Source of the DNA: Dethiobacter alkaliphilus
GTDB taxonomy: Bacteria; Bacillota; Dethiobacteria; DTU022; UBA8154
DNA length: 64,000 nucleotides
Assembly (NCBI GenBank): GCA_016841605.1
Contig: JAENYV010000005.1
Coordinates: 8,103 to 72,102 of the forward strand
Direction of reading: 5' to 3'
This document shows positions 643-10,478 of this stretch, piece by piece. Under the pieces are notes generated by a model. It had not been told where the DNA came from. It made no database searches and saw only the letters and a program-made list of their open reading frames with translations. Every line of letters starts with the position of its first letter. Positions within the stretch are counted from its first letter, which is position 1. The position numbers were made by a program, and so were the translations under genes.

Positions 643-849
643 GTGGACACAAACGGAAGCCTTGATACTTACCCGGAAATCCTCACCCCTAAGCAGATTG
701 CCAACTATCTTGGAATCGGCTACATTAAGGCCTTACGCTTGGTAAAGTCGGGCGAGATATCATGTGTTAAGATTGGCAACGCTTATAAGGTGCCAAGACT
801 TCAATTTCAGAAATGGTTGGACGAGCCAGGGCTCAGAAAGTTTTTGTAA
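643..849 (+). CDS. Excisionase-family helix-turn-helix protein
   Basis: This is a 68-residue protein with a GTG start at 643, chosen because GGAGGT at 630-635 sits 7 nt upstream. Residues 12-60 read as a MerR/excisionase-type winged helix: LTPKQIANYLGI is the first helix-turn-helix part, ALRLVKSGEI the recognition helix, and CVKIGNAYKVPRLQFQKWL the wing and tail. Small proteins of this family bind attachment-site arms and bias the integrase toward excision, or act as element repressors. It lies 69 bp upstream of a tyrosine integrase on the same strand, the usual xis-int order. The family assignment is fairly sure; the excision role is inferred from the neighbour. Confidence 0.8.
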   Translation: MDTNGSLDTYPEILTPKQIANYLGIGYIKALRLVKSGEISCVKIGNAYKVPRLQFQKWLDEPGLRKFL

Positions 850-858
850 TTAGCACAG

Positions 859-890
859 GTGCCAGCTTGCCAATTATGGTAAGCTGGCAC
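859..890 (+). promoter_or_regulatory. Strong 13-bp hairpin between xis-like gene and integrase
   Basis: GTGCCAGCTTGCC (859-871) pairs with GGTAAGCTGGCAC (878-890), 13 bp with one G-T wobble, across a 6-nt loop. An A-run follows on the plus strand, so it would only look terminator-like on the minus strand. It ends about a dozen bases before the integrase ribosome binding site (GGAGAGGAGG). It may modulate read-through or translation of the integrase, or be a protein site; both are inference. Confidence 0.5.
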
Positions 891-918
891 CCAAAAAAAT
901 GGAGAGGAGGAAATAACT

Positions 919-2103
919 ATGACCGGACATATCCGGAAGAAAAAAATTAAAAATGGCCATATCTGGCAAGTTATCGTTGAACTCGGAAGTGATGAATCCG
1001 GAAAGCGGAAGAGAATATACCGAAATATTAGGGGACAAAAACAAGAAGCCCAGAAACTCCTGGCTTCACTACTTACTGAATTGAGCAATGGAACATATAT
1101 TGAACCATCCAAGATCACGCTAAAGGAATACTTTCTTGACTGGATGGAGACTTATGTCAAAATGAATCTTTCTCCTACAACTATTGATAGTTATAGAATT
1201 AATATTGAAAAGCATGTAATTCCCACTCTTGGTCATATCAAGCTCCAGGAGCTCAAACCCATGGACCTGCAAAAATTCTACAAAATGAAGTTAGAGAATG
1301 GCAGAACTGATGGTAAAGGTGGCTTGTCGGCTCGTTCAGTTCGTTATATCCACCGAAACATCCATGAAGCCCTGGAACATGCAGTTCGGATGCAGCTAAT
1401 CCCCCGCAATGTTGCTGCTCTTGTAACTCTGCCTAAAGCTAAGCCTTATAAAGCCAATGTTTATAATGAGAAACAGCTTTTAATCCTGTTAGAGAAAGCT
1501 ATGGGGACGGATATGGAGTTGGCAATCTTCCTGACAGCCACCCTTGGATTGCGCCGTGGGGAACTGCTTGGCTTGAAATGGTCTGACGTAGACTTTGAAA
1601 CCGGAAGGATTCGAATCCAGAACAATCTTGTCCAGACTCAAAAAGGAAGTGTGTGCAAGGAACCGAAAAGCAAGTCAAGCAGTCGGGGGCTTGATTTGCC
1701 GGAAGGCCTGGTTGCTATTTTGAAGAAGCACCACAAAATCCAGGCCCAGAACAAGCTTAAGCTGGGAGCAGCCTATGACAAACGGGATTTTATTTGTTGT
1801 CAGAACAATGGGTATCCCTTCTCGCCTGGTTACTACTCTAAAAAGTTTAAAACCTTTCTTGAGGAGAACGGCCTTCCACATATTAGGCTGCACGATCTGA
1901 GACATTCGAATGCTACTTTGATGCTTATGTATGGGATCCAGCCGAAAGTTGCATCAAGCAGCCTTGGACACTCTTCTATAGGTATTACCCTGGATCTCTA
2001 TTCTCATGTATTGCCGGAAATGCAGAAAGAAGTGGCGGATAAGATCGAAAGCGGTATATTCAAAAAACTTTCAAATGGTGTTGTTGGCAGCAAAGCCAAG
2101 TAA
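919..2103 (+). CDS. int: Tyrosine site-specific integrase of a tRNA-Ser-associated element
   Basis: This 394-residue protein matches the usual size of Tn916/phage-type integrases. Residues 1-55 form a basic arm-binding domain (IRKKKIKNGHIWQVIVELG), about 65-170 the SAM-like core-binding domain, and 180-380 the catalytic domain. Visible catalytic residues are the Arg in TLGLRRGELLGLKW, His and Arg in HDLRHSNAT, the His in SLGHSSIGIT, and the Tyr in LDLYSHV. The start has a strong GAGGAGG upstream. It recombines attP with a chromosomal attB. The 3' end lies about 870 bp from the 3' end of tRNA-Ser(CGA), a common attB type, and the last ~30 bp of the gene are repeated next to that tRNA. It appears intact; the rest of the element lies left of the window. 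Confidence 0.93.
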   Translation: MTGHIRKKKIKNGHIWQVIVELGSDESGKRKRIYRNIRGQKQEAQKLLASLLTELSNGTYIEPSKITLKEYFLDWMETYVKMNLSPTTIDSYRINIEKHVIPTLGHIKLQELKPMDLQKFYKMKLENGRTDGKGGLSARSVRYIHRNIHEALEHAVRMQLIPRNVAALVTLPKAKPYKANVYNEKQLLILLEKAMGTDMELAIFLTATLGLRRGELLGLKWSDVDFETGRIRIQNNLVQTQKGSVCKEPKSKSSSRGLDLPEGLVAILKKHHKIQAQNKLKLGAAYDKRDFICCQNNGYPFSPGYYSKKFKTFLEENGLPHIRLHDLRHSNATLMLMYGIQPKVASSSLGHSSIGITLDLYSHVLPEMQKEVADKIESGIFKKLSNGVVGSKAK

Positions 2104-2800: not shown

Positions 2801-2974
2801 AATGGTCTTGTTGTCAGCAAAGCCAAGTAGTTTCAACCATTTTCGCCTATTATGGCGACTAAATGGCGACTGTCGTCGGCTCTTTCGTCGGCTGCAGGAA
2901 AAAATGCAGTGAGTATGCAACAGAGTGTTTAGGCCATAAATTTGCTTAAACACTCTGTTTGTAAGGAATTTGGC
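2801..2974 (+). repeat. Attachment-arm-like segment, copy B, abutting tRNA-Ser
   Basis: This is the diverged counterpart of 2074-2251: a truncated integrase 3' end (AATGGTCTTGTTGTCAGC), a perfect tandem ATGGCGACT pair, two GTCGGCT direct repeats (2875-2881 and 2887-2893, again 12 bp apart), a CTGCA/TGCAG mini-hairpin and the hairpin 2922-2956. It runs straight into the 3' end of tRNA-Ser at 2971. No integrase body precedes it, so it looks like the residual end of an earlier, related element at the same tRNA. Confidence 0.75.
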
Positions 2975-3065
2975 GGAGAGAGTGGGATTTGAACCCACGA
3001 AACGGCTCAACACCGTTTACTCGATTTCGAGTCGAGCGCCTTCAACCGAGCTCGGCCATCTCTCC
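2971..3065 (-). tRNA. tRNA-Ser(CGA), integration target
   Basis: The minus strand folds as a class II tRNA with a long variable arm. The acceptor GGAGAGA pairs with TCTCTCC, followed by discriminator G and an encoded CCA (2971-2973). The anticodon stem CTCGA/TCGAG encloses the loop CTCGAAA, giving anticodon CGA for UCG. The 3' end faces the integrative element, as expected for a tRNA used as attB. Between 3106 and 3355 no gene is seen. Confidence 0.92.
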
Positions 3066-3355: not shown

Positions 3356-3811
3356 TTATCTTCGCTGCTGAAAAAATCTTTTTAAGATCTCTGAGCACTG
3401 CTTCTGAAGAACACCCTCTGTAAATTCCAGGCGGTGATTCAGTCGGTGGTCACGAAGCAGATCGTAGAGTGATACAACCGCTCCGGCCTTGGGATCACGG
3501 GTGCCGAAAACCAACCTGGAGACTCGGGCTTGGATCAGCGCACCGGCACACATGGGGCATGGTTCCAGAGTAACGTATAATGTTGTCTTCGGAAGTCTCC
3601 AACTGCCCAGAAGACGGCCCGCCTCCCGCAGAACAAGAATTTCTGCGTGTGCCGTGGCATCTTCCATCTCCTCGCGTCGGTTGTGATTCCCAATCAGAAT
3701 TCGTCCATCGTAAACCAGCACTGCTCCCACAGGGACTTCTTCACGGCGGTAGGCTTCTTCGGCCAGGTGAAGTGCTTCTTGCATGTATAATTCGTCATTT
3801 TGCATGTTCAT
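3356..3811 (-). CDS. tadA: tRNA-specific adenosine deaminase TadA
   Basis: The 151-residue protein has the family's usual length. It deaminates A34 to inosine in the anticodon of tRNA-Arg(ACG), letting one tRNA read CGU, CGC and CGA. The zinc-binding and catalytic motifs are visible: HAE at residues 55-57 and PCPMC at 84-88 (Cys85 and Cys88). AGAGGT precedes the ATG at 3811. Its predicted substrate, tRNA-Arg(ACG), is encoded at 10166-10242 in this window. No dnaX or SRP RNA follows, unlike the common Firmicute arrangement; instead the tRNA-Ser/element region lies downstream. Confidence 0.95.
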   Translation of the reverse strand: MNMQNDELYMQEALHLAEEAYRREEVPVGAVLVYDGRILIGNHNRREEMEDATAHAEILVLREAGRLLGSWRLPKTTLYVTLEPCPMCAGALIQARVSRLVFGTRDPKAGAVVSLYDLLRDHRLNHRLEFTEGVLQKQCSEILKRFFQQRR

Positions 3812-4075: not shown

Positions 4076-4117
4076 TAAAATCGGACAACAAACAATACCT
4101 GTCTGCTTGACAAACAA

Positions 4118-4154
4118 CAGGTGCGGCCCGCGCGGATTTCCTTAACCGCACCTG
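4118..4154. other. GC-rich 9-bp inverted repeat
   Basis: CAGGTGCGG (4118-4126) pairs with CCGCACCTG (4146-4154) around an 19-nt loop. On the minus strand TTGTTTGTC follows, so it may be a second terminator or the 3' part of a structured RNA arising from the repeats upstream. Confidence 0.45.
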
Positions 4155-4282
4155 TGCTTCATTCCTGGAGTTTAATGGGTTTAACAATATCTCGGTAACC
4201 AGTGCTTGAGATGATTTATTTTTTAATTTTTGCTAACACTCCCTTCTTTATTATAATTATTAAGACGACGGACCTAATTCCA

Positions 4283-4474
4283 TTTCCACACGTTTCGCCG
4301 CGTATGGAAAAGTAATAATCATTTTAGATCTTGATGAGGGTAATTTCCCAGTAGCCTTTAGCAGACGTTCCCTTATTCACCTGGACAAGGGTAGTTCCCG
4401 CTAATAATTCTCGGGGTTTTTCGAAGGGATTCGTTTAACAGGCCCTGGTATTCACTTCTTTACACGGTTGCCGG
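4283..4474 (-). repeat. ~190-nt hairpin-bearing tandem repeat, copy 1
   Basis: Compared with 4556-4747 this copy shares a series of blocks in the same order. On the minus strand these are GGCAACCGTGT, AAGTGAATACC, CGAATCCCTT, GAAAAACC, GAATTATTA, GGAACTACCC, AAGGGAACG, CTGC-AAAG-CTAC and a closing hairpin TTTCCATACG/CGTGTGGAAA (10 bp, one G-T). No long reading frame crosses it. It could be a structured RNA, a decayed group II intron-like or other mobile piece, or a decayed coding repeat. I do not recognise the family; strand is inferred from neighbours and the terminator at 4041-4075. Confidence 0.6.
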
Positions 4475-4555
4475 TAGTTGTGGTTGCTGGTGATACAGTA
4501 GGTAGAGCTTTCATGTATTGGCTTCTAAGCCGTTAGTTTACGAAGCCGGACACTA

Positions 4556-4747
4556 TTTCCACACGTTTCCGTCGCGTATGGAAAATACTTGTCCCTTTTC
4601 AAAGATCAATCCTAGTGACTCCCTGGTAGGCTTTCGCAGGCGTTCCCTTTTCGCCCCGTGAAGGGGTAGTTCCTGTAATAATTCTTAAGGTTTTTCAAGG
4701 GATTCTTTCCGACTGATCCAGGTATTCACTTCCTCACACGGTTGCTG
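4556..4747 (-). repeat. ~190-nt hairpin-bearing tandem repeat, copy 2
   Basis: This is the second copy, offset 273 bp from copy 1. The same closing hairpin occurs with identical arms (4556-4565 and 4575-4584) but a different loop. Internal arms differ between copies, for example CCCC-GTGAA-GGGG here. The linker between the copies holds a GGCTTC/GAAGCC stem (4520-4525 with 4542-4547). The rest of the gap, 4748-4977, shows no gene, no strong hairpin and no promoter I can defend. Confidence 0.6.
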
Positions 4748-4977: not shown

Positions 4978-5364
4978 TCATAACGGCCCCCTGGGTTCCG
5001 GATCAGCCCTGGCCGGCGGGTTGCCAAGGATCTCCCGGAAACTGGATGTTGCTAGGGGCATATAGCCCAGCAATTTAAGTGGGGCATGGATCATCTGGCC
5101 TTCGTATTTTAACCGGACAATAGGCAACTTAATTCCTGTGTCCGAAATGTAAAATTGGATATCTGTTTTCTTAACCGGACTTTGATTAATAATTATGTTT
5201 TTCTCAGCTTCAGTTTTCTTCTCGGTAATAATAACTTTCGTTCCCTCCACAGGTTTTTTAGCAACTACTCCTTTTGAAGCTGTAAACTCAATCATGGTTG
5301 TCCAACCGATCATGGCGATAGACAAACTGATTATCAGGACTTTACCTAATATGCGAAATCTCAA
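4978..5364 (-). CDS. Small exported or membrane-anchored hypothetical protein
   Basis: The 128-residue protein starts at TTG 5364 (AGGGGGTG lies 7-8 nt upstream). Residues 5-23 form a hydrophobic segment after a basic start, a signal anchor or signal peptide. Residues 35-70 are charged and Lys/Glu-rich. Residues 70-110 look like a folded beta-rich part (DIQFYISDTGIKLPIVRLKY), and the tail is Pro/Arg-rich. It lies 110 bp downstream of the signal peptidase gene on the same strand, so it may be that enzyme's substrate or partner; that is inference from position only. No family is recognised. Confidence 0.6.
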   Translation of the reverse strand: MRFRILGKVLIISLSIAMIGWTTMIEFTASKGVVAKKPVEGTKVIITEKKTEAEKNIIINQSPVKKTDIQFYISDTGIKLPIVRLKYEGQMIHAPLKLLGYMPLATSSFREILGNPPARADPEPRGPL

Positions 5365-5474: not shown

Positions 5475-6662
5475 TTATGTAAACACTTCTTTCCGATTTA
5501 AAATTTTTCGGCGATTTTTTAAATTACGGGAGGCGGGACTAATAGAAACACGCATTTTATTATTCATATTACAATTTTGACGCCCCTGAACCTCCGTTTT
5601 ATGCAGTAAACGGTTGTAACGACTTTGGAGATTACCGGTTTGACCGGCTTTTCCTGCTTGTCCTGCTTGTCCTGCCTGCCTCTCGACAGTAGTGGCAGGG
5701 TCCATATCCTTTTGTGCAAGTGTGATTAAAGTAGCCTTCTGCCTGTAATTATGACTTGCATAGTTAAGGTTTGCATAATTGTGGCCGCTAAACTCAGGAA
5801 AATGTTGGCCTTTACGGTTTTTCCCGAAAGTATTTCCACTCTTTTTCGCCAACCCGGCAGAACGGCCGTTTATTTTCTTTAAAGCTTTAACTTTACTCTT
5901 CTCAGGAAGGAGTAGAATCTGTGCATACGCTTTATCATCCTTCCTTTTATCAGCAGTAATTGACATTTCATCATTACTGATTAATTCCGAATCGAGTTCC
6001 GATTCGCTTGGCAAATTTATCTTCCATGCCGCTATTCTCCGCCTTTTCATTAGCGTTGCTATCTTGCGCAGGCTGCGAAACTCACAAATAATCAGCAGGA
6101 TTGCCGGTATAATAATCATTGCTAAGAGGCCTATCCTGGTCCTGGCAAAACTTATCAGATAACCTACTGTCGGAATAAAGTACTTTACCCTTCCTACTAC
6201 ATATTGAGCCGGAACGGAAGCCGGATCACCTACTTTATTGGCATCACCGCGGGTAATAAAACTCAACCCCTCTTTACTTGTCTGCAACCGGACAACCCGA
6301 TGGGTCGTAAATTCTTCAATTCCAGCTGCATTTTGTTGAAAGGTAATGATATCTCCAACAGCGATATTTTCCGGTTCCAAAGGATGGACAAAGACAAGAC
6401 TTCCATTATGGAATGTCGGGCTCATGCTGTCACTTTGAACAATATACATTCGGTATCCGCATACAGAAGGGTTTTCCCCCGTGACTTTATGTTGCACGAG
6501 GAAAAAGACTAATATTCCCAGAAGCAGATACAAACATACTAAAAAGGCATTACGGATGAGACGAGGCAACAAGAACAAAAATCGCTGAACATTGCCGGCA
6601 TCTTCTCCTGTCTTCATATCCTTTTCCAGACGGTCGTAGTCCGCTATTAAATCGGCCTGCAT
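5475..6662 (-). CDS. Signal peptidase I of the SipW/ER type with long C-terminal extension
   Basis: The 395-residue protein is about twice the usual SipW length. A membrane segment spans residues 38-56. The catalytic core has SDSMSPTF with nucleophile Ser79, THRVV with His121, and TRGDAN with Asp140. A His in place of the Lys of ordinary bacterial enzymes marks the SipW/ER (S26B) subtype. A second membrane segment lies at 177-193. Residues 200-395 are a basic, low-complexity tail with tandem AGQ-type units near 328-340, not found in SipW. The ATG is preceded by GAGGG. SipW-type enzymes process particular secreted fibre or coat proteins. The only neighbour that could be a client is the small exported protein at 4978-5364. 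Confidence 0.85.
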   Translation of the reverse strand: MQADLIADYDRLEKDMKTGEDAGNVQRFLFLLPRLIRNAFLVCLYLLLGILVFFLVQHKVTGENPSVCGYRMYIVQSDSMSPTFHNGSLVFVHPLEPENIAVGDIITFQQNAAGIEEFTTHRVVRLQTSKEGLSFITRGDANKVGDPASVPAQYVVGRVKYFIPTVGYLISFARTRIGLLAMIIIPAILLIICEFRSLRKIATLMKRRRIAAWKINLPSESELDSELISNDEMSITADKRKDDKAYAQILLLPEKSKVKALKKINGRSAGLAKKSGNTFGKNRKGQHFPEFSGHNYANLNYASHNYRQKATLITLAQKDMDPATTVERQAGQAGQAGKAGQTGNLQSRYNRLLHKTEVQGRQNCNMNNKMRVSISPASRNLKNRRKILNRKEVFT

Positions 6663-6928: not shown

Positions 6929-7567
6929 TTAATTTTTACGGCTATCCGTCTCTGTGCCAAGGCCGTGGGAAAATGCATAAAGAGCAGCCTGGGTCCGATC
7001 CTCTAAGTCTAATTTGTCAAGCAAATTACAGATATGTTTTTTAACAGTATTTTCACTGATACAAAATTCCCTGGAAATAGAACGGTTATTAAGACCACGG
7101 GCCAGGGCTTGAAGAATTTCTTTTTCCCTGGAAGTCAAATCACGAAACGGATCTTTGTCGTCTATTTGTAAAATATTTTCTAGAATCTCGGGATCATAAT
7201 ATCGTTTGCCCTTTGCCAAGATGCGAATAGCGGAAATTAGTTCTTCAGGAAGCGCACTTTTTAAAATGTAACCGCCAACATTTTCCGCCAGGGCTGTGTT
7301 AATATCTTTTTTGGAGGCAAAGGAAGTAAGAATAAGAAAGCAGCAGGAAGGGGAAAAATCCCTTACCCGGCGAATTACATCAAAACCGCTTTCTCCGGCC
7401 ATCCTTATATCCACAATAGCCAAATCGGGCTTCTCTTCCCTAATCAGCTCTACACCCTGACAGCAGGACATAGCAACTCCGACAACATCCAAATCTTCTT
7501 CCAGGCCAACAATCTGCTGAATACCGCTTAAGACCAGAGGATGATCATCAATAACAACAATTTTCAT
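6929..7567 (-). CDS. NarL/LuxR-family response regulator
   Basis: The 212-residue protein has a receiver domain (residues 1-120, acidic pocket Asp7/Asp8, phosphoacceptor Asp53 in LAIVDIRM) and a LuxR-type helix-turn-helix (about 145-205: LTSREKEILQALARGLNNRSIS, split here as LTSREKEILQ and GLNNRSIS, then ENTVKKHICNLLDKL). The start at 7567 is chosen over an in-frame upstream ATG at 7660 because GAGGAGG lies just ahead and the receiver begins there. It overlaps the 3' end of the kinase gene by 20 bp, so the pair is co-translated. The target genes are unknown; the signal peptidase cluster downstream is a candidate. Confidence 0.93.
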   Translation of the reverse strand: MKIVVIDDHPLVLSGIQQIVGLEEDLDVVGVAMSCCQGVELIREEKPDLAIVDIRMAGESGFDVIRRVRDFSPSCCFLILTSFASKKDINTALAENVGGYILKSALPEELISAIRILAKGKRYYDPEILENILQIDDKDPFRDLTSREKEILQALARGLNNRSISREFCISENTVKKHICNLLDKLDLEDRTQAALYAFSHGLGTETDSRKN

Positions 7568-8888
7568 TAATTTTTTCCTCCTCTGCAGTAAAAATAACAG
7601 GATAGGTATATTTGGGGATTTCACATGAAACTCTGGTTCCTTTTCCCGGATTGCTTTCAAGGAGAAAAACCCCGCCCTTGCTTCTGCTCAATTCTCGCAT
7701 ACTATCCAGACCCAACCCCCGTTTCTCCTTTTCACTGACCTTCTGGAGATGAAAACCGCAACCATTATCTTTGATACTTACTTTTACTTTGTCCGGAAGG
7801 GCCTCGAGGCTAACCACAATGCTGCTGCATTTGGCATGCCGAACTGCATTCCCCGTCGCTTCCCTGATAAAACGATAGATGGTTTTTTGCAGAGGAAAGC
7901 TGAGGTGCTCAAAATCCCCTCTGTTGTCAAAACAGATAAGAATATCGTTTAATTCCCCCATATCGGAAAGATATTCACTAATAAGTTGAAGAAAGTCCCG
8001 CTTATTATTTCGCGAAGAGAGATCATAAATAAAGTTGCGCAACTCCTGAAAGCTTGTCCGGGCATTTTTTTGCAAAAGCCTGAGCTGTTTTCCGGTATCT
8101 TCATCCAGTCCTTCCCGTTTAAGAAGTGCTTCAATTCCGTATATTATGCTGAAGATATTCTGTGTGACTCCATCATGGATTTCTCCGGCAATACGATCTT
8201 TTTCCTCTAATAAGATTGCTTCTTGAACATTTTTTTCCAGAAAATATTTTTCCAGCGAGACTGCACATAAATCCGCTAAAAGAGAGAGGACCGGCTCAAT
8301 TTCTGTCCGGCAAAAATCATGATCAGTAAAATACGCAGAGAGGACACCAAATCTATTAGAATTTGATTCTATGCCGACGATCAGCAAATTCCCCATTAAG
8401 TTGTCATTAACTTTCCGGCCGAACACCCCACCTAAATTTTCTTTTTTCTCGAAAAACTGCCGAAGATATGGTAGCCATAAATTTTCAGGGAATATATTTT
8501 TCGGTCCCCGAACCACAGAGCATTCACGCATGGGAAAACGGCCCGCCAATTCCAATTCCCCTTTTAACCATATGATAACTTTTTGGGCACCTGTAAGTGT
8601 CCGGCTATAGGAGGCAAAAAGGCCCGCGATTTCCTCCGGATGATTATTGTATGAAAACCCTTCAACAACCTTAATGAGAGTTCTAAGATGGGATAGCTCA
8701 TTTTTTACTTTCTCGGTCTGTCGGGAAAATTTTCGGGCCAGCAAATTACAATATTGAAAATCAAAACTTATTAGGATAAAAATACTTAACGGAATCCAGA
8801 AAAAAGGGCTTTTCATGCCTCCACTGTAAACAAGTAAAATAGCTAAACCGACGGATTCCAGGATAATGGTCGCCTTTTTAATCATCAT
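7548..8888 (-). CDS. Sensor histidine kinase of the NarX/DegS/LiaS (HisKA_3) type
   Basis: The 446-residue protein has two short membrane segments at about 8-22 and 28-45. A coiled stretch and a GAF-like domain (about 80-215) follow. The dimerisation motif EEKDRIAGEIHDG carries His238 as phosphoacceptor, and an HATPase domain (about 335-435) has DNGCGF and GLGLDSM. The start has GAGGAG about 10 nt ahead. The lack of a large extracellular loop means the signal is sensed in the membrane or cytoplasm. It pairs with the regulator at 6929-7567. The 385-bp gap 8889-9274 upstream holds only the terminator at 9133-9157 and AT-rich DNA. Confidence 0.93.
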   Translation of the reverse strand: MMIKKATIILESVGLAILLVYSGGMKSPFFWIPLSIFILISFDFQYCNLLARKFSRQTEKVKNELSHLRTLIKVVEGFSYNNHPEEIAGLFASYSRTLTGAQKVIIWLKGELELAGRFPMRECSVVRGPKNIFPENLWLPYLRQFFEKKENLGGVFGRKVNDNLMGNLLIVGIESNSNRFGVLSAYFTDHDFCRTEIEPVLSLLADLCAVSLEKYFLEKNVQEAILLEEKDRIAGEIHDGVTQNIFSIIYGIEALLKREGLDEDTGKQLRLLQKNARTSFQELRNFIYDLSSRNNKRDFLQLISEYLSDMGELNDILICFDNRGDFEHLSFPLQKTIYRFIREATGNAVRHAKCSSIVVSLEALPDKVKVSIKDNGCGFHLQKVSEKEKRGLGLDSMRELSRSKGGVFLLESNPGKGTRVSCEIPKYTYPVIFTAEEEKINENCCY

Positions 8889-10165: not shown

Positions 10166-10242
<77 letters not shown>

Positions 10243-10246
10243 ATGA

Positions 10247-10341
10247 TGGCGGAGAGAGAGGGATTCGAACCCTCGAAGCAGGCTTTAACCCGCTTAATCG
10301 CTTAGCAGGCGACCGCCTTCGACCGACTCGGCCATCTCTCC
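10247..10341 (-). tRNA. tRNA-Ser(GCT)
   Basis: This is a class II tRNA with a long variable arm, acceptor GGAGAGA/TCTCTCC and encoded CCA. The anticodon loop CTGCTAA gives GCT, reading AGC/AGU. It is only 4 bp from tRNA-Arg, so they are processed from one transcript. Confidence 0.95.
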
Positions 10342-10390
10342 GCATATATTTAATTAATAAGTTATTCCCATTCTGCCACAGACAGGTTTG

Positions 10391-10478
10391 TGGCGGAGGG
10401 GGTGGGATTCGAACCCACGGCTCGTTTAGAGTCACTAGTTTTCAAGACTAGCTCCTTAAACCGCTCGGACACCCCTCC
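10391..10478 (-). tRNA. tRNA-Ser(TGA)
   Basis: This is a class II tRNA with acceptor GGAGGGG/CCCCTCC and encoded CCA. The anticodon stem CTAGT/ACTAG encloses CTTGAAA, giving TGA for UCA-type codons. It lies 66 bp downstream of serS on the same strand, so the synthetase and its substrate may share a transcript. Confidence 0.95.

Follow-up and report, generated by a model that had tools for sequence, protein, structure and literature searches.

Tandem repeats of Dethiobacter alkaliphilus are copies of a lineage-restricted structured RNA linked to a small ORF with a candidate arrest tail

The tandem repeats between positions 4283 and 4747 of the window (the 64,000-nt stretch of Dethiobacter alkaliphilus DNA analysed here) are two copies of a structured RNA core of ~100-115 nt, encoded on the minus strand, which is conserved, absent from Rfam and restricted in its distribution. 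In all seven genomes that contain it, this RNA is located downstream of, and on the same strand as, an ORF ending in (R/K)A-x-PEP(R/K)GPL-UGA; every copy lies 3' of the stop codon of that ORF and, where sequenced, 5' of a terminator, and the co-occurrence of tail and RNA is exclusive. A sequence-only reading of this DNA had proposed an unknown structured RNA on the minus strand, and the same-context homologues in six other genomes, the conserved fold and the lack of an Rfam match bear this out. The linked gene ending in RADPEPRGPL, just upstream of the repeats, had been overlooked.

In the window, the repeats occupy a gene-free gap of 1.17 kb (previously given as 1.1 kb) between a tadA-like ORF (3356-3811) and a 128-aa ORF (4978-5364), both, like all features described in this paragraph, on the minus strand. 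Four matching blocks (59 nt at 71%, 19 nt at 89%, 18 nt at 83% and 15 nt at 100%) recur with a start-to-start distance of 273-275 bp and in the same order, as had been noticed for a distance of 273 bp; the repeats were thus correctly recognised, but their conserved part exceeds the blocks reported at the time. Core copy a (4613-4728) consists of P1 (CCTGG/CCAGG), P2 (TCCCTT/AAGGGA and CAGTCG/CGCCTG), P3 and P4, the last of which (CCCC-loop-GGGG; 4654-4666) is the best conserved hairpin, and core copy b (4338-4454) of P1 (CCAG/CTGG), P2 (TCCCTT/AAGGGA and ACG/CGT), P3 (CCCG/CGGG) and a weak P4. They score 80.7 and 89.2 bits, respectively, in cmsearch, each copy being itself in the training set. 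Based on the sequence, repeat comparison and folding, each core is followed by a 3' hairpin with a 10-bp TTTCCATACG/CGTGTGGAAA stem (4556-4584 for copy a and 4283-4310 for copy b), and sequence and folding place a GGCTTC/GAAGCC hairpin between the copies (4520-4547). These are the closing stems and the linking stem that the earlier reading had described, and they are best read on the minus strand, where one position of the 10-bp stem is a G-U pair; on the plus strand it would read as A-C, a mismatch. A terminator-like 10-bp hairpin, ACAGGTGCGG/CCGCACCTGT, with a T-rich tail (4108-4155) is likely to mark the 3' end of the RNA; a terminator had been noted here, although it lies ~130 bp beyond the second copy and not 200 bp. 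A matching terminator hairpin with compensated stem changes is present in two relatives (G001 and G002). When the whole 511-nt stretch is folded as a single sequence, the result is not significant (z = -1.27 and -1.22), and we therefore relied on comparative evidence from relatives.

The RNA is present in seven of 98 genomes of the class (the window genome, G000, and six others), all belonging to one family but to seven species of several genera, and the named carriers are metagenome-assembled genomes of uncultured Bacillota/Syntrophomonadaceae. Together they contain 11 core copies, arranged as two tandem copies in G000, G001, G002 and G022, and as a single copy in G005, G010 and G013. A blastn search of 100 relatives gave two loci, and a query taken from one of these gave two more genomes; a covariance model (R1) led to G002, and a profile of the small ORF led to G001, in whose sequence both copies are visible. 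A model of the 3' half of the core (R3) scores the 11 copies, which are also its training set, at 46.9-82.3 bits and everything else in the 98 class and 398 phylum genomes at no more than 27.8 bits. At the level of sequence, independent evidence for homology is provided by a sequence-only model trained without G001 and G002, which recovers G002a, G002b and G001b at 33.4, 20.5 and 18.4 bits, respectively; under this model G001a is weak. The R3 matches of up to 27.8 bits are regarded as chance, the top three overlapping protein-coding ORFs that by eye are PhoH-like, glutamine synthetase-like and solute-binding-like. Partial model matches in G021 and G113 (28.6 bits) were also rejected, being located upstream of an MNT/HEPN-like pair and lacking the tail ORF. 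The MNT/HEPN-like pair itself is identical in these two genomes (L017 and L046), which belong to different families, as would be expected from a recent transfer or from contamination.

Rfam scans of the window, the locus and four relatives at permissive thresholds returned chance matches only: nothing reached the gathering threshold, nor, beyond chance, E <= 5, and this included the OLE model. No further convincing copy was found elsewhere in the carrier genomes, each of which has one locus. In G000, G002 and G022, the copies look more alike within the genome than across genomes, which suggests repeated duplication or homogenisation of the tandem cores. MITE-like elements with AGTAACTGCTCAG/CTGAGCAGTTAC ends were observed inside the 3' part of the G022 RNA locus (L004, 1888-1999) and just beyond the G002 terminator (L024, about 2230-2380).

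The core folds as a rod: P1 forms the base, P2 follows above it in two parts separated by an internal loop, and a junction holding P3 and P4 closes the top. The joining nucleotides of the junction are conserved, the P3 loop is A/U-rich (AUUAUUA in most copies) and P4 is usually CCCC/GGGG. P1 occurs as CCTGG/CCAGG, CCAG/CTGG, CTTCC/GGAAG, GGGGCC/GGCCCC and other variants; because these stems were picked by eye, the hand-made stem table is no independent test, which is provided instead by a permutation of the arms. The 5' arms of the G001, G002 and G010-like groups share little sequence, yet they pair with their own 3' arm: matched arms have a mean of -29.1 kcal/mol versus -24.8 for swapped arms (p = 0.0003), the arm boundaries being set solely by the conserved P3-P4 anchor. 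Unconstrained folding gives the same rod for G010, G005, G013, G022a, G022b, G002a and G002b, while the rod is less clear for G001b and both window copies when folded alone, and z averages -1.83 on the minus (RNA) strand versus -1.14 on the other strand. We do not claim a covariance statistic for the whole set, since MAFFT fails to align the 5' arms of G001 and G002 correctly. Taken together, these data support the view that the copies diverge while one architecture persists.

The 128-aa ORF upstream of the repeats has an N-terminal hydrophobic signal that by eye is of the SipW-substrate/TasA type, and it ends in RADPEPRGPL-UGA (codons at 4978-5010, minus strand), a candidate ribosome-arrest motif. 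Each of the seven RNA genomes contains one match to a degenerate DNA pattern for PEP-(R/K)-GPL-stop and the 91 other class genomes contain none, a reversed-pattern control gave zero matches in all 98, and the pattern is absent from viral contigs; one chance match was seen in Roseibium. Variation among the tail codons is found mainly at third positions (10/12, versus 2/12 at position 1 and 4/12 at position 2), and therefore selection acts on the peptide. AxPEPRGPL is nearly invariant, compared with 31-38% identity over the whole ORF, and the residues around its start read RADP in the window, RAGP in G001, RAPP in G005, RAAP in three genomes and KAAP in G022. All six unfused ORFs have a hydrophobic stretch after basic residues at the N-terminus (alignment and Kyte-Doolittle), and the best 17-residue Kyte-Doolittle window, 2.1-2.75, is N-terminal in five of them. 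The signal segment reads GGTTMAWY in G001 and GGTAMVWY in G002, which by eye resembles that of SipW substrates, whose GGATMAWF signal is found after sipW in G012 and G006. Three small ORFs that were compared with TIGR04088 and the TasA model match neither; the protein at the same position in another genus does match TIGR04088. Outside the genus, a profile of the small ORF found no more than weak local matches in the 398 phylum genomes. The distance from the stop codon to the first core varies between about 110 and 250 nt. We considered readthrough of the UGA but discarded it, as another in-frame stop follows within about 4-14 codons. In G022, the body of the small ORF is gone and a sipW remnant is fused in frame to KAAPEPRGPL-UGA, with tail and RNA being kept.

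Upstream of the small ORF, the window encodes, on the minus strand and in one cluster, a SipW-type signal peptidase (5475-6662; TIGR02228, 118.7 bits, cutoff 51.85), a LuxR-type response regulator (6929-7660) and a histidine kinase (7548-8888). The upstream gene is sipW in G000, G001 and G002 and a truncated sipW in G005 and G022; no sipW was found in G010 and G013, though the tail ORF and RNA remain. The SipW homologues of G005 (L008, 321-1031) and G022 (L004, 729-1361) have apparently lost the catalytic part and kept membrane segments. In the closest relatives, the locus resembles SipW/TasA secretion clusters in having a histidine kinase, a response regulator, sipW and an ORF with a GG(A/T)TMAW(F/Y)-like signal; it differs from them in the PEPRGPL tail, the RNA that follows, the missing TasA body and a sipW that is sometimes truncated or absent. 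On the other side, the gene behind the terminator differs between genera, being tadA, thiolase or lepA. Elsewhere in the window, near a tRNA gene, a short HTH/excisionase-like ORF and one of 394 aa that is tyrosine-integrase-like (643-2103, plus strand; 2974-3065, minus strand) look like the end of an integrative element, and three tRNA genes are located between serS-like and alpha/beta-hydrolase-like genes (10169-10478, minus strand).

The closest known systems with which we compared the small ORF are the RQH-type and stop-codon arrest peptides (SecM, ApdA, ApdP, YwcI and the NAP-stop and NSP-stop groups; PMC10987492). Like these peptides, it is small, has an N-terminal export signal, a poorly conserved middle and a short conserved C-terminal tail, with RAGP, RAPP or near variants just before the stop and structured RNA thereafter; the spacing from signal to candidate arrest site, 80-104 residues in five genomes, exceeds the 30 residues expected for the RQH family. 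RAGP is the core of SecM and RAPP that of ApdA and ApdP, both with proven ribosome arrest and under-represented in Bacillota proteomes (PMC12992588, PMC10987492), and, among arrest peptides, some halt the ribosome when the stop codon occupies the A site (PMC10987492). The presence of these cores in the tails, together with known stop-codon stalling, therefore makes the tail of the small ORF a good candidate arrest sequence. RAGP (G001) and RAPP (G005) fit the published RQH motif, (R/Q/H)-(A/G/D)-(P/G/S)-(P/G), and RADP is a published query motif, whereas RAAP and KAAP fall outside it. Unlike RQH peptides, which precede secA, secDF or yidC, the ORFs studied here are followed by tadA, thiolase or lepA as the next gene, and they have a longer invariant tail, PEPRGPL-UGA. 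In addition, the structure after the tail is a tandem RNA of 0.5-0.9 kb, and not the single SD-masking hairpin of arrest-peptide systems.

Our tentative proposal, to which we give somewhat less than an even chance, is that the repeats are two copies of a lineage-restricted structured RNA that forms the 3' part of the sipW-operon transcript, with translation of the arrest-like tail acting as its gate in cis. The minus-strand transcript would carry sipW, a small ORF with the make-up of a SipW substrate and, in its 3' part, the RNA. Unless the export machinery takes hold of the nascent signal sequence, ribosomes translating the tail would slow down or stall, either at RAxP or at the stop codon. 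A ribosome placed in this way just upstream of the RNA would determine if that RNA is produced, folds or is retained. The structured RNA, and not one particular protein gene beyond it, would then serve as output or control element. Transcription as one unit, the arrest and the regulatory step are all inferred. Given the different genes behind the terminator, the most economical reading is cis gating with the RNA itself as the target of the tail, and the link of tail and RNA in all seven genomes, as well as the G022 deletion that spared both, point to a cis link. The RAAP and KAAP tails, the absence of a downstream sec or yidC gene and the variable distance from stop to core count against cis gating.

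The RNA could, however, act independently of the ORF. OLE, 6S and RNA sponges act in trans, and the main alternative to cis gating, a close rival that we consider possible rather than probable, is an independent trans-acting noncoding RNA of 0.5-0.9 kb, arising by co-transcription at the end of the sipW operon or by processing from there, with the tail linked to it by operon structure only. Consistent with this, the downstream genes are not conserved, which makes a fixed cis target after the RNA unlikely, and the RNA is multi-domain, with tandem cores and a terminator. This alternative does not readily account for an exclusive link with a short tail in seven of seven genomes, for a deletion in G022 that spares just tail and RNA, or for the lack of another convincing copy elsewhere in the carrier genomes. 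Like OLE RNA (PMC12265935, PMC9723947), the element is a large structured RNA limited to an anaerobic/extremophilic group of Bacillota and located beside a membrane-related protein gene; unlike OLE RNA, it matches no OLE or other Rfam model, is built of tandem small cores and resides in a sipW cluster.

We consider it unlikely that the element is a tandem aptamer of riboswitch type that controls the terminator and the following gene. The compact junction folds with conserved joining nucleotides, arranged in tandem ahead of a terminator, do recall tandem riboswitches (PMC9481103), but the element has no known aptamer and always follows the same ORF instead of preceding the same gene, the downstream gene not being conserved between genera, and the terminator is roughly 100-250 nt or more from the last core. 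Least probable of all is a functionless, locally duplicated remnant of an intron, insertion sequence or MITE. The copies are indeed diverged, lie in a gene-free stretch and are in several genomes more alike internally, so that duplication or homogenisation recurred; nevertheless, a single locus per genome, at a gene junction shared by seven species from several genera, and pairing that was kept during divergence, largely refute decay already. The decayed coding or intron origin raised by the sequence-only reading is not supported either, as there is no conserved protein frame, no intron family (group II included) or reverse-transcriptase family match in Rfam or at the locus, no transposon signature, and the element is neither multi-copy nor mobile.

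Returning to cis gating, a more specific version of it, which we regard as doubtful, is that the locus encodes a nascent-chain sensor of SipW/Sec export, in which a TasA-like leader and a SecM-like arrest tail would have a large structured RNA, with its tandem cores and terminator, as their output. An arrest-like tail followed by such an RNA suggests a new kind of output for export sensors, and the 11 copies in seven genomes provide a bounded test set for a motif absent from Rfam. The functions of large structured noncoding RNAs are mostly open. If true, this view would connect two fields with little contact so far, that of arrest peptides, which serve as export monitors, and that of large structured noncoding RNAs, and would show that the target of a nascent-chain sensor need not be a protein gene but can be an RNA element.
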